DNA of 21,979 bases from a virus. Position numbers and translations under genes: made by a program. Under the pieces are notes generated by a model, which did no database searches, had not been told where the DNA came from, and saw nothing but the letters and a program-made list of their open reading frames with translations. The stretch is from the IMG/VR virus record IMGVR_UViG_3300035206_000286, positions 1 through 21,979 of that record, one strand, 5' to 3'. Shown here in pieces: positions 3,587 to 16,371 of the stretch (positions within the stretch are counted from its first letter, which is position 1; every line of letters begins with the position of its first letter).

Positions 3587-3607
3587 TAATCGTTCGAAAG
3601 GTGTAGG

Positions 3608-3643
3608 GGATCCTGATAAGGCCTTATTGGGATCCTTTTTTTT
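3608..3643 (+). terminator. Strong rho-independent terminator
   Basis: A near-perfect 12-13 bp hairpin: GGATCC-TG-ATAA pairs with TTAT-TG-GGATCC (including two G-T wobbles) around a GGCC loop. Eight T residues follow (3636-3643). It ends the free-standing unit at 3284 and directly precedes the promoter that starts the next operon. Confidence 0.93.
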
Positions 3644-3644
3644 C

Positions 3645-3673
3645 TTGACATGATCAATATAGTATGTTATTAT
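3645..3673 (+). promoter_or_regulatory. Sigma70-type promoter, TTGACA-17-TATTAT
   Basis: A perfect -35 (TTGACA, 3645-3650) is followed after 17 bases by TATTAT (3668-3673). An alternative -10, TATAAT at 3671-3676, gives spacing 20. It sits directly after a terminator and just before the small ORF and glycosyltransferase operon. The start site would fall at about 3680, at or next to the ATG at 3681. The same promoter type recurs at 16399, 16909, 18092 and 20973. Confidence 0.88.
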
Positions 3674-6139: not shown

Positions 6140-6285
6140 AAACAAGAAATGAAATGATTAGAGATTTTTATTTAAAAACTAAAAAGATAGATTCTTCTAA
6201 ACCTCGGCCGCAAACAGGTCCTAACGCATCGTTTATGGGTGAGATGAATAAGCCAAATAAAAAGGAAAAGCATGAAAATAAGTGA
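6136..6285 (+). CDS. Small hypothetical protein, 49 aa
   Basis: The 49-aa frame starts within the epimerase stop (ATGA overlap) and has a very good ribosome binding site, AAGGAG at 6124-6129, 6 bases upstream. It runs 14 bases into folE. The product is basic and polar (PRPQTGPNASFMGEMNKPNKK near the C-terminus) and looks unstructured. No family is recognised. The strong initiation signal and the lack of a gap on either side support it as real. Confidence 0.65.
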   Translation: MKTRNEMIRDFYLKTKKIDSSKPRPQTGPNASFMGEMNKPNKKEKHENK

Positions 6286-6946
6286 TCAAATAAGGCAACG
6301 CATAGAGAAAGCGGATGCTGACTTTAGATGTAATAACAATATATCAGACTATATTAATGTTGGAGACTTAGATCTTTTACAGGCTGAAGTAGAATCTAAA
6401 GTACAAGATCTTTTACACACATTAATCATAGACACTGAACGAGATCATAATACACAAGAGACAGCAAAACGTGTAGCGAAAATGTATGTTAAAGAAATTT
6501 TTAGAGGAAGATATGAACCGCTTCCAAAGATAACTGCGTTTCCAAATATGGGTTACCAGAGTATGTACACAAGTGGTCCAATAAGTGTTAAGTCAACTTG
6601 TGCCCATCACTTTCAAAGTATAGTTGGTAAAGCATGGGTAGGCATTATACCTAATGATGAGGTTATAGGATTGAGTAAGTTTAACAGGCTTGTTCATCAC
6701 ATTGCGGAACGTCCACAGATACAAGAGGAGATGACTTCGCAGATAGCAGACGCATTAGTACAGTTTGCTAAGACACCTAATATTGCTGTAGTGGTTAAAG
6801 CAGAACATATGTGTATGACACACAGAGGTGTAAGAGAGCACGAGTCGGATATGACTACTGCTATAATGCGTGGAGCATTCTTTGATGACCCAGCCGCGAA
6901 ACAAGAGTTTTATAATATTTGTATGAGTATGAAAGGACATGGTTAG
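6272..6946 (+). CDS. folE: GTP cyclohydrolase I
   Basis: Converts GTP to dihydroneopterin triphosphate, the first step of both folate and 7-deazaguanine (queuosine/preQ0) synthesis. The 224-aa length is normal. Zinc and catalytic residues are all present: Cys110 and His113 in STCAHHF, and Cys181 in AEHMCMTHRGV. The IGLSKFNRLV segment and the ERPQIQEEMTSQIADAL helix are typical of the family. AAGGAA lies a few bases before the ATG. The next gene, a phosphoribosyltransferase, overlaps by 8 bases. QueD and QueE follow within 1.4 kb, so the likely job is feeding the deazaguanine pathway rather than folate. Confidence 0.96.
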   Translation: MKISDQIRQRIEKADADFRCNNNISDYINVGDLDLLQAEVESKVQDLLHTLIIDTERDHNTQETAKRVAKMYVKEIFRGRYEPLPKITAFPNMGYQSMYTSGPISVKSTCAHHFQSIVGKAWVGIIPNDEVIGLSKFNRLVHHIAERPQIQEEMTSQIADALVQFAKTPNIAVVVKAEHMCMTHRGVREHESDMTTAIMRGAFFDDPAAKQEFYNICMSMKGHG

Positions 6947-7484
6947 AAAAGAATATTATTCAGTAGGCAAAGTTAAAGGTCTTGTTTTAGATATTATCAA
7001 ACAGATGTACCAAGACACTTGGAAACCTGATTTCATTGTAGGTATTAATCGAGGTGGTTTAACTCCAGCAGTAATGATGAGTCATTTTATGAATGTACCA
7101 ATGTTTACTTTAGATATACAATTACGTGATCATACAAGAGCACCAGAATCTAATCCAATGATGCCATTAGATGCAATGGACGGTAAGCAGATTCTTATTG
7201 TAGATGATATAAATGACAGCGGCGCAACATTTAATTGGATTGTTAATGATTGGACAATGGCATTGTCACCAGAATTTGTACAAAACCATTTGCCATACTT
7301 GCCAGACGAACGAAAAGTTTTGTGGAGACGCAATGTAAGGTTTGCTGTGCTTACAGAGAATCTTGCAAGTGAGTTTAATGATGTTGATTATTGTGTAGAG
7401 GAAGTTAATAAAGCAGAAGATGATGTTTGGATTGTGTTCCCTTGGGAACAATGGTGGGGTATAAATTTCGATGAGGAGAAATAA
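6939..7484 (+). CDS. Type I phosphoribosyltransferase, purine-PRTase-like
   Basis: A 181-aa protein with the PRPP-binding loop ILIVDDINDSGATF (about 85-98), the upstream loop FIVGINRGGLTPA (32-44), and a late WIVFPWE segment as in xanthine/guanine PRTases. Such enzymes join a purine base to PRPP to give a nucleotide, or in related proteins bind PRPP for regulation. It overlaps folE by 8 bases and precedes the small membrane ORF and queD. Salvage of guanine to raise GTP for FolE, or handling of a deazapurine base, is plausible; the substrate is not readable. Exact specificity is uncertain. Confidence 0.82.
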   Translation: MVRKEYYSVGKVKGLVLDIIKQMYQDTWKPDFIVGINRGGLTPAVMMSHFMNVPMFTLDIQLRDHTRAPESNPMMPLDAMDGKQILIVDDINDSGATFNWIVNDWTMALSPEFVQNHLPYLPDERKVLWRRNVRFAVLTENLASEFNDVDYCVEEVNKAEDDVWIVFPWEQWWGINFDEEK

Positions 7485-7485
7485 A

Positions 7486-7632
7486 ATGTTAGGATTAAAA
7501 AGTGGTGAAAAAGCAATTTGGTTAATCAGTTGTTCTATAGCAGTAGTAGCAGTTACTACGTTATCATTGACGCTGTTGAGTTGGGCAAATGGTAATGCAG
7601 GAACATTAGCAAAATTTGTGTGGGGTTATTAA
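7486..7632 (+). CDS. Small single-pass membrane protein, 48 aa
   Basis: A 48-aa frame with a good Shine-Dalgarno (GAGGAG, 7473-7478, 7 bases before the ATG). It fits exactly between the phosphoribosyltransferase and queD, whose ATG follows the stop directly. A short basic N-terminus (LKSGEKA) is followed by a hydrophobic segment at about residues 11-33 (IWLISCSIAVVAVTTLSLTL), then a short polar tail. The topology suggests one transmembrane helix in the inner membrane. A membrane protein inside a nucleotide-modification operon is unexpected. It may act in lysis, lysis inhibition or host exclusion; no homology is recognised. Confidence 0.7.
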   Translation: MLGLKSGEKAIWLISCSIAVVAVTTLSLTLLSWANGNAGTLAKFVWGY

Positions 7633-8112
7633 ATGAGCGATTATGTACCAGAGTTTACCTCTACTAAAACATTCCACAACTTCCCATGTGCTCATAGACA
7701 ACATAAGCACGATGGGAATTGTCATTTGATACACGGCTATAGTCGTAGTTTTCATATTGTATTTGGCGCACAAACAATGACAAAGGAAGGATTCCTTGTT
7801 GACTATGGCGACTTGGATGAAGTAAAGCATTGGTTAGATGAAAATTATGATCATACACTTGTAATTGATCATGATGATCCGTGGATGGCAACATTTCAGG
7901 AACTACACAATGCAGGTGTGTGTAAGTTAATAGTACAAGAGGAAGGCCCAGGCATGGAAGGTACAGCATTCCGTATTTGTACGTGGGTAGATGCTTGGTT
8001 GCGTGAGCGAACCAATGGACGAGCATGGGTTATTAGTGTTGAAGCCAGAGAAAATGACAAGAACAGTTCAATTTATACTAATCCAGATGCTGGATTTAAA
8101 GGATGGGAATAA
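7633..8112 (+). CDS. queD: 6-carboxytetrahydropterin synthase-like protein (QueD)
   Basis: QueD turns dihydroneopterin triphosphate into 6-carboxy-tetrahydropterin, the second step to 7-deazaguanines. The family pattern is clear: FPCAHRQ (zinc His21), catalytic Cys30, the LIHGYSRSF region, LVDYGDLDEVK (equivalent to the family's MVxDFxxLK), YDHTLVI with the Asp-His pair (73-74), and a C-terminal VEARE strand. Length 159 aa is slightly longer than bacterial QueD (about 120-140). The zinc motif is HGY (34-36) instead of HGH, so one expected metal ligand is a tyrosine. GGGG lies 7 bases upstream of an ATG that directly abuts the previous stop. Context (folE, queE) supports QueD over mammalian-type PTPS. 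Confidence 0.88.
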   Translation: MSDYVPEFTSTKTFHNFPCAHRQHKHDGNCHLIHGYSRSFHIVFGAQTMTKEGFLVDYGDLDEVKHWLDENYDHTLVIDHDDPWMATFQELHNAGVCKLIVQEEGPGMEGTAFRICTWVDAWLRERTNGRAWVISVEARENDKNSSIYTNPDAGFKGWE

Positions 8113-8300
8113 TGAAAGATACAAAAGTAGAACAGAATATTAATGATGTGGTAATGCTTACAGCAAAAATTAATGGTATTTGTAAAGAGTTAAAAAAAGA
8201 AAATGTACTTCTTAGATTTGAAATGAATCATAATATTAGTGAGGAAGATACTATTGCAGTTTCGGAAGCAATACAACGAGTTAATTATTTAGAAGACTGA
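8112..8300 (+). CDS. Small hypothetical protein, 62 aa
   Basis: A helical 62-aa protein (TAKINGICKELKKENVLLRFEM, then an acidic SEEDTIAVSEAIQRV helix) of unknown function. The start at 8112 overlaps the queD stop (TAATG), with AAAGGA at 8098-8103 placed 8 bases upstream; an in-frame ATG at 8103 would sit right on that site and is less likely. Its stop overlaps the queE ATG by one base, so it lies between queD and queE in a translationally coupled chain. Confidence 0.65.
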   Translation: MKDTKVEQNINDVVMLTAKINGICKELKKENVLLRFEMNHNISEEDTIAVSEAIQRVNYLED

Positions 8301-9151
8301 TGAAAAAATTTAGAGTTACAGAAGTTTTTTATAGTGTCCAAGGAGAAGGGCAGTTTGTTGGTGTGCCTTCTGTATTTTTACGAGTGTTTGGATGTAATTT
8401 TAAGTGCGAAGGATTTGGAATGCCAGCAGGTGAATCAAGTAAAGAACGCTTAAATATAAATCTAAATGATTATAATAGTTTTGAGGACTTACCACTTGTA
8501 ACAACTGGTTGTGATAGTTATGCTAGTTGGGATCCACGATTTAAACGTTTTACAACTGACATTGAAACAGATGCGTTAGTAGAATTATTATTAGAACACA
8601 CACCAACAGGAGATTGGATAACAGAAACAGGCCAAAGTGTACATTTAGTTATTACCGGTGGAGAACCGTTGTTAGGATGGCAACAAAAATGGCCTGAATT
8701 ATTTAGACATCCAAAAATGAGGAATTTAAGACATGTCACATTTGAAACAAATTGTACACAGGTACTTAGAAAGCACTTCAGAGATTTTCTTATCCATGAA
8801 GCAGAATTTCATACTACTTTTTCATGCAGTCCGAAACTTTCCGTATCAGGCGAGTCTTGGAGTGATGCAATTAAGCCTGAAGTTGCTTTGGATTACTATA
8901 ATGTTTTTGACAGCAGTATGTATTTCAAGTTTGTTGTCGCTAATGAAGTGGATATGGAAGAAGTTGACAAAGCTGTCAATGAATACCGGAACGCCGATGT
9001 TGTCGTCTCTGTCTATTGCATGCCAGTCGGCGGGTGCAAAATGGAGTATATGGAGAACAGAGCAAAGGTTGCGGAAATTGCGATGAAAAAAGGTTATAGG
9101 TATTCACCAAGATTGCATATAGATTTATTTGGAAATCAATGGGGAACATAA
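8300..9151 (+). CDS. queE: 7-carboxy-7-deazaguanine synthase, radical SAM (QueE), phage form
   Basis: QueE contracts 6-carboxy-tetrahydropterin to 7-carboxy-7-deazaguanine using S-adenosylmethionine and a 4Fe-4S cluster. Family signs: VFYSVQGEGQFVGVPSVFLR at the N-terminus, TGGEPLL at 119-125 (SAM contact), HVTFETNC (145-152) and SCSPKLS. The cluster cysteines are unusually spaced: Cys32-x3-Cys36, then the next candidate Cys71 after 34 residues, in TTGCDSYASWDPRF, instead of the usual compact motif. I recall the same spacing in T4-like cyanophage QueE-like proteins. It overlaps the preceding small gene by one base and the lyase gene by one base. Codon choice in the last 90 codons looks richer in G/C-ending codons than in the first half. 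Confidence 0.88.
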   Translation: MKKFRVTEVFYSVQGEGQFVGVPSVFLRVFGCNFKCEGFGMPAGESSKERLNINLNDYNSFEDLPLVTTGCDSYASWDPRFKRFTTDIETDALVELLLEHTPTGDWITETGQSVHLVITGGEPLLGWQQKWPELFRHPKMRNLRHVTFETNCTQVLRKHFRDFLIHEAEFHTTFSCSPKLSVSGESWSDAIKPEVALDYYNVFDSSMYFKFVVANEVDMEEVDKAVNEYRNADVVVSVYCMPVGGCKMEYMENRAKVAEIAMKKGYRYSPRLHIDLFGNQWGT

Positions 9152-9975
9152 TGAATAGATTTTTTATATTTTTTGTATTGTTATTTCTACATAGTGGTAT
9201 AGGATATGCCGATACAAGTATATTGCGTGTGGATAATAATAGAGGTCCTTGGATGGACACCGTTGACGAAGGAGCAAGGGATTATGCTTATACAAGAGTA
9301 ACAGATTTCTCACGCAAAGGCCCTACGTCGTTAAGGTTTGAAGTACGCAGTGGTGATTGTTTTACAGCATATCCTAATAATCCAAGTAGAGGCTGGGATG
9401 ATTGTACAAGGCACAGAGAACGAGCAGAGGTTAGAGAAAAATGGACAGCAACATGGGATAAGCCTATCTGGTATGGGATAAGTATTTATATACCAAATAA
9501 CTATAATTTTTTATATCCTAAACAAATTATTTTTCAATGGCACAGAGGAGAACAGCCTGTAGCATATATGAAACTTGAAAGAAAGAATTTAAAATTTGAC
9601 ATCCTAACTGAATTAGGGCGATCGACATCTATATATGATTTAGGTAATGTATTTGAAATGGGATGGGCAGGTAAATGGATAGATGTACTATGGAATGTTA
9701 ATTGGAGTGTGGATGACACAGGATATTTATATATGTGGATTAATGACAGGCAAGTAATTCAACATCGTGGTGCTACAACTGACAAAGAAAAAGGTAAATG
9801 TGTTGCATCTAATGGAAATTGCGGACCATTTGCAAAGTATGGTATATATAGATCGCATTTGTTTCGCTATGAAGGCGGAGAGGATAATCTTCCTACACAA
9901 GTATTATTCTTTGATGAGTATAGGCGAGGGCATACTCGTGAAGAAGTAGATGTAGAAGTAAACGAGGGTAGTTAA
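9151..9975 (+). CDS. Exported polysaccharide lyase-like protein
   Basis: A 274-aa product with a clear signal peptide: basic start, hydrophobic FFIFFVLLFLHSGIG, and a likely cut after GYA (residue 20). The body resembles the beta-jelly-roll polysaccharide lyase family PF14099: GPTSLRFEVRSGD, HRERAEVREKW, IWYGISIYIPNNY and QIIFQWHRGE follow the family's order of strands. These enzymes cleave uronic-acid polymers by beta-elimination. An upstream in-frame ATG at 9139 would bury the signal peptide; 9151 (TAATG overlap with queE, GGGGA just before) is preferred. Export would place it in the periplasm or outside the host. Host capsule breakdown or lysis help is inferred. No tail-fibre domain is fused. 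Confidence 0.72.
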   Translation: MNRFFIFFVLLFLHSGIGYADTSILRVDNNRGPWMDTVDEGARDYAYTRVTDFSRKGPTSLRFEVRSGDCFTAYPNNPSRGWDDCTRHRERAEVREKWTATWDKPIWYGISIYIPNNYNFLYPKQIIFQWHRGEQPVAYMKLERKNLKFDILTELGRSTSIYDLGNVFEMGWAGKWIDVLWNVNWSVDDTGYLYMWINDRQVIQHRGATTDKEKGKCVASNGNCGPFAKYGIYRSHLFRYEGGEDNLPTQVLFFDEYRRGHTREEVDVEVNEGS

Positions 9976-15529: not shown

Positions 15530-15542
15530 TATCATATCAAAC

Positions 15543-15583
15543 TCTTCTTAAGCTAATATTTAGATAAATATAGTATAAGAAGA
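15543..15583 (+). promoter_or_regulatory. Inverted repeat flanking a late promoter and masking a ribosome binding site
   Basis: TCTTCTTA (15543-15550) is the exact reverse complement of TAAGAAGA (15576-15583). The right arm overlaps the AGAGGA ribosome binding site (15581-15586) of the gene at 15592. The 25-base loop holds GATAAATA (15563-15570). RNA reading through from upstream would pair the arms and hide the site. RNA started from the loop promoter, near 15576, would lack the left arm and stay open. T4 gene e uses this logic. Confidence 0.6.
15563..15570 (+). promoter_or_regulatory. Candidate T4-type late promoter box (GATAAATA)
   Basis: GATAAATA differs from the T4 late consensus by its first base. 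It lies in the 62-base gap before the gene at 15592. By T4 spacing, transcription would begin near 15576, leaving a leader of about 16 bases that contains the AGAGGA ribosome site. Confidence 0.55.
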
Positions 15584-15591
15584 GGAATTTG

Positions 15592-15879
15592 ATGAGTCGA
15601 CCTAAACCAGAAATTCTGTTATCACATACAGATCAAAATACATATAAGAAGGAAGAAGTCCTAAAGGCTGAAGCCATTTGGGCAGTTTTCTACGAAGGGC
15701 AACCCATCAACTTACGAAACTCAAATTCGTTGGTTGACTATCCTGGACCAAAATACCGCAAAGTTTCTTTTAGTAATCCTGGCCATGCACACAATTTGGC
15801 AGAGAAACTTAATGAGAAATTCCATACAAATAAATTTGAAGTTTATCAATTAACTACCGGCGATGTCATTACAGAATAA
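15592..15879 (+). CDS. Conserved T4-like marine phage hypothetical protein, 95 aa
   Basis: The start is set at the ATG (15592) rather than the TTG three bases earlier, because AGAGGA (15581-15586) lies 5 bases upstream. The product begins SRPKPEILLSHTDQ and contains AEAIWAVFYEGQPINLR, YPGPKYRKVSFSNPGHAHNLAEKLN. I recall this layout from hypothetical proteins shared by T4-like cyanophages. It looks like a small alpha/beta domain with no catalytic motif. A late-type promoter and a hairpin lie just upstream, which suggests late expression. The next gene overlaps by 17 bases. Confidence 0.8.
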   Translation: MSRPKPEILLSHTDQNTYKKEEVLKAEAIWAVFYEGQPINLRNSNSLVDYPGPKYRKVSFSNPGHAHNLAEKLNEKFHTNKFEVYQLTTGDVITE

Positions 15880-16333: not shown

Positions 16334-16371
16334 AAAAACCGCCCCAAAACCACCCAAAAGACGCGGTTTTT
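16334..16371 (+). terminator. Probable terminator hairpin
   Basis: AAAAACCGC (16334-16342) pairs with GCGGTTTTT (16363-16371), a 9-bp stem with a 20-base loop whose 3' arm ends in five T residues. It lies right after a stop codon and before a new promoter. The large loop makes it weaker than the terminators at 3608 and 20344. The same arms could work on the other strand, but no reverse gene needs it. Confidence 0.55.

Follow-up and report, generated by a model that had tools for sequence, protein, structure and literature searches.

Gene X and its leader

We analysed a stretch of viral DNA 21,979 nucleotides long (IMG/VR record IMGVR_UViG_3300035206_000286; hereafter the window). Within a tightly packed co-directional run, where most genes overlap or abut their neighbours, a glutaredoxin gene is separated by a 62-nt gap from a small open reading frame, gene X. 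The gap holds an inverted repeat, beginning 12 nt past the glutaredoxin stop codon, and a late-type promoter box:

15535–15594 (+): whole predicted stem-loop, including outer UCAAA/UUUGA pairs and the start codon (z −4.1)
15542–15550 (+): left, anti-Shine–Dalgarno (anti-SD) arm, CTCTTCTTA, predicted to be confined to read-through RNA
15563–15570 (+): T4-type late promoter box GATAAATA (−13 to −6), in the hairpin loop
15576 (+): predicted late transcription start, placed here because T4 late boxes occupy −13 to −6 (PMC1524935)
15576–15584 (+): right arm, TAAGAAGAG, covering part of the SD and starting at the predicted late start
15581–15586 (+): Shine–Dalgarno (SD) sequence AGAGGA, seen in the sequence
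15592–15879 (+): gene X, the putatively controlled gene, encoding a 95-aa orphan protein with homologues in jumbo-type phages

The original prediction gave exact 8-nt arms, TCTTCTTA (15543–15550) and TAAGAAGA (15576–15583). The repeat is indeed exact and in that place, the full version being 9 bp (15542 paired with 15584) and embedded in a longer fold. Inner pairs (GCUA/UAGU and UAUUU/AAAUA) and the outer pairs, which reach as far as the ATG at 15592, make this a single long stem-loop, start codon included. The remaining placements were borne out: the right arm lies over the AGAGGA site, the loop contains the late-type box, and a start at T4 spacing would fall on the edge of the right arm. Bare 9-bp inverted repeats (loop 3–30) are not rare in the AT-rich window, numbering five versus 0–8 in ten shuffles, and the bare repeat taken alone is unconvincing. 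What exceeds chance is the full stem, together with its placement over the ribosome site, the presence of a late box inside the loop and the recurrence of this arrangement among relatives. The minimum free energy is −19.2 kcal/mol for 15530–15610 (z −4.1) and −16.0 kcal/mol for 15540–15592 (z −4.4), each equalled by none of 200 shuffles.

The gene X product has no match in Pfam, PHROGs or NCBIfam. Its structure model is confident (pLDDT 91), and a fold search returned no significant match in the PDB; in BFVD its sole matches were two phage proteins, both uncharacterised. Homologues are well conserved; they come from viral contigs and from jumbo phages, namely Phosso, PA5oct and relatives, Atu_ph07 and SCTP-2. 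We considered a T4-type lysozyme and rejected it, finding neither a family match nor a significant fold match.

Transcription setting and the late promoter box

Three further elements bear on how RNA might reach gene X:

3605–3638 (+): strong terminator just before the 3645 promoter (terminator scan)
3645–3673 (+): sigma-70 consensus promoter (11/12), the nearest strong one upstream and predicted source of read-through RNA
16334–16371 (+): terminator-like inverted repeat AAAAACCGC..GCGGTTTTT, recognized by eye and predicted to end the unit; its loop of 20 exceeds the limit of the terminator scanner

Sigma-70 consensus promoters lie at 2707, 3645, 16399, 16909, 18092 and 20973, all on the + strand (five perfect TTGACA/TATAAT and one 11/12, against about one in shuffles). 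No equally good promoter was found on that strand between 3645 and 16399, and the terminator scan found no comparably strong + strand terminator between the 3645 promoter and 15542. Given this promoter, the terminator before it and none comparably strong after it, read-through RNA is expected to enter gene X; the assumption that it spans ~12 kb derives solely from promoter and terminator consensus.

Elsewhere in the window, genes for GTP cyclohydrolase I, a phosphoribosyltransferase, a 6-pyruvoyl tetrahydropterin synthase-like protein and a QueE-like protein (by eye) stand in a row at 6272–9148, suggesting a 7-deazaguanine pathway. Encoded at 9139–9972 is a protein resembling polysaccharide lyases, with a signal-like N terminus, and at 2018–2596 a ClpP-like protease.

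Of 24 related records, 14 encode a late sigma factor of the gp55 family, among them all four isolated phages searched (PA5oct, Atu_ph07, SCTP-2 and Phosso), in agreement with a published survey that reports sigma factors and gp33 in the same jumbo phage group (PMC7824862). No sigma gene was found in the window, a 22-kb fragment. GATAAATA, a TATAAATA-like box, stands before genes for virion structural proteins and tail fibres. Several records show enrichment of the box over a reversed control (18 to 1 in G008), and not all do (8 to 17 in Phosso).

Near-perfect anti-SD/SD arms around GATAAATA were also seen at late-box genes in L094 (8084, −), L085 (6295, −), L131 (15019, +; PA5oct), L103 (16099, −) and L090 (454, −), with positions counted on the named strand. 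The products of some of these genes are virion structural proteins.

Predicted accessibility and a proposed timing switch

For opening the ribosome site (−16 to +3), the predicted cost is 18.5 kcal/mol when the RNA is read-through and 3.1 kcal/mol when it starts at 15576 (z 4.7 against shuffles). This contrast is stable to the assumed start (15573–15579), to context length and to temperature. The identical calculation for T4 gene e yields 16.4 kcal/mol versus 4.1 and 1.6 kcal/mol for its two late boxes. At the base level, the predicted probability that SD positions 15581–15584 are unpaired does not exceed 0.003 in read-through RNA, versus 0.41–0.97 in RNA from 15576; the late RNA is only partly open. 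The leader thus has the predicted attributes of the gene e type: the SD and/or start codon lie in a helix of the read-through RNA, the box is so positioned that a transcript starting at 15576 leaves out the 5′ arm, and the ribosome site is open, in part only, in the late transcript.

We consider a T4 gene e-type timing switch the best explanation at gene X, with a probability of roughly 0.8. Read-through RNA from upstream sigma-70 promoters (the nearest, at 3645, ~12 kb away) would enter gene X and fold so as to lock the gene's SD and start codon in the stem, giving little protein. Once the phage late sigma is active, transcription from GATAAATA within the stem-loop would start at ~15576; this late RNA would lack the left arm, and the same ribosome site would be open. 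Within this model, we infer the start site, the read-through into gene X and the translational silencing. The original prediction had proposed just such a gene e-like reading, and it gains support from energetics resembling those of T4 gene e and from predicted read-through-specific sequestration that recurs at gene X in relatives.

The arrangement recurs with unrelated sequences

The homologue set comprises 164 distinct upstream regions in 69 clusters. NNTAAATA occurs 10–60 nt before the gene X start in 63 of the 69, mostly as GATAAATA; under looser clustering it is observed in 24 of 28, versus 2.9 of 28 expected in shuffles. Unrelated sequences repeatedly form a hairpin hiding the SD or start codon, as with CCTCCTGATAAATATCATGGAGG in L015 and CTGTTATTTTTAGATAAATAATAGTAGTATATAACAG in L018. 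Searching for relatives via the upstream protease gene confirmed none.

A genuine late promoter might nonetheless sit in an incidental stem-loop, formed where anti-SD-like pyrimidines pair by chance with a purine-rich SD, and both the frequency of bare 9-bp repeats in the window and the absence of the effect in some homologues fit such a coincidence. We addressed this by joining each gene's own ribosome site to the upstream region of another homologue, a swap that preserves SD, box and composition and yet removes over half of the effect. Across 63 representatives, the mean read-through effect fell from 5.27 to 2.33 kcal/mol (sd 0.24; reached in 0 of 20,000 permutations); with 21 looser clusters it was 5.30 versus 2.24 kcal/mol, and with a fixed junction z was 12.7. 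The swap was used instead of an earlier shuffle test that retained the box and nearby bases, which was too strict because the left arm adjoins the box in some leaders. In the same genomes, genes that have an SD and lack a late box gave no significant effect (z 1.6 and −0.5), on which basis we also rejected a shared promoter-plus-SD composition effect. Other GATAAATA genes show a weaker effect (3.18 versus 1.98, z 5.4), with about one-sixth strongly hairpinned. Pairing is also preserved between the window and L002, where five of 18 pairs have changed, two of them on both sides, and all 18 still pair; these are the paired changes for which a comparison of relatives had originally been proposed. 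An incidental stem-loop is therefore improbable.

Less probable still is that the hairpin is the target of an autogenous repressor, RNase III or RNase E, with RNA ends near 15576 being cleavage products. There is precedent in T4, whose gp43 and gp32 repress their own mRNAs via leader RNA structures (PMC3014915). Among gene X homologues, however, only the place of the hairpin relative to the SD and box is conserved and not its sequence, a pattern better explained by base-pairing than by a bound motif. The late box is nearly always present, and the hairpin has no Rfam match. The comparative evidence indicates that what is conserved at gene X is the arrangement and not the sequence.

Lineages without the hairpin

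The hairpin is not universal: 24 of the 63 representatives lie above the 95th percentile of swapped pairs, and the effect is absent from L177, a cluster of 29 sequences. The largest value among the four isolated phages, 8.6 kcal/mol, belongs to Atu_ph07 (L083). Close relatives that had kept gene X and lost the repeat were named at the outset as evidence against the switch, and this is partly what we see. L006 (82% aa identity) has lost the hairpin and has an intrinsic terminator in place; in L004/L005 the box hairpin is shifted ~23 nt upstream, and in L007–L009 it is weaker. The low-switch clusters L006, PA5oct, L171 and L180 carry an intrinsic terminator instead, beginning ~65–90 nt upstream of the start; the association of terminator with low switch has a rank-test p of 0.01 for a pattern noticed first and tested afterwards. 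L020 has a weak terminator together with a hairpin.

Two variants deserve description. In L004/L005, the region from about −70 to +3 of gene X contains a possible three-segment switch (AGGAGAG, CTCTCC and the SD AGGAGA), in which a late start could free AGGAGAG, allowing it to pair with CTCTCC and release the SD; the predicted energies are small. In L013 and related clusters, the left arm of the hairpin lies directly beside the box and extends across the predicted start. The late RNA would thus retain part of the stem, making the predicted switch smaller.

That the window's repeat is itself a transcription terminator or attenuator for the upstream operon, as its place 12 nt past the glutaredoxin stop might suggest, is very improbable, given its low G+C, its 25-nt loop, the lack of a U-run in the GGAATTTGATG that follows, the failure of the terminator scan to call it and the different look of real terminators at the same place (L006).

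Implications for late gene control

At gene X, a textbook switch known for a few T-even genes appears to recur at one conserved gene over widely diverged phages, and the hairpin is apparently exchangeable with a terminator. Recurrence with replaced sequence, together with this exchange, suggests selection against early expression of gene X, and marks its protein as having a late-acting, possibly harmful function. A broader rule for jumbo-type phages is a tentative proposal, which we hold at slightly under even odds: late genes would be kept unexpressed from read-through RNA, with the conserved orphan gene, like some of the virion genes, evolving its own hairpin around the late box and some lineages using a terminator instead. 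If true, function would be conserved and sequence not. The recurrence at gene X also provides a signature of anti-SD, late box and SD that could be used to find gated late genes in jumbo phages.

Comparison with known systems

The closest counterpart is T4 gene e. In both, by prediction at gene X, the SD and start region pair with an upstream arm in the long early RNA, the late box lies between the arms, the late RNA lacks the 5′ arm and the opening energies are similar. Lysozyme synthesis from the long T4 RNA is ~100-fold lower (PMC3014915). Gene e encodes lysozyme in T-even phages, whereas gene X encodes an orphan 95-aa protein in jumbo-type phages; gene e has two late boxes and the gene X leader one, GATAAATA. 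The likeness drawn here uses no leader sequence similarity.

That T4 uses this arrangement for gene e and a few others agrees with the literature. The mechanism is established for the soc and 49 leaders as for e (PMC3014915), and the SD is hidden in read-through RNA at I-TevI, I-TevII, I-TevIII, segB and Aeh1 mobE (PMC2988022). Like gene X on the present reading, these late genes lie within transcription units that are early or middle, and their SD is masked in RNA that reads through. They differ in being mostly homing endonucleases or T-even genes, from T4 and close relatives, whereas gene X is one conserved gene across a much wider phage range.

The box is likewise of the type found at gp55-dependent T4 late promoters, a TATAAATA-type box at −13 to −6 (PMC1524935), and the gp55 family is present in relatives. 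Position −13 is G in the window and mostly G in relatives, versus T in T4. Some relatives have C or G in place of the first A of the box (GCTAAATA, GGTAAATA), unlike T4 late promoters.

A limited search of the open-access literature for this mechanism in jumbo phages yielded T4 reviews and unrelated papers, and no earlier description. The mechanism itself is known; within that search, what is new is the gene, the wider range of phages and the conservation of an arrangement rather than a sequence.
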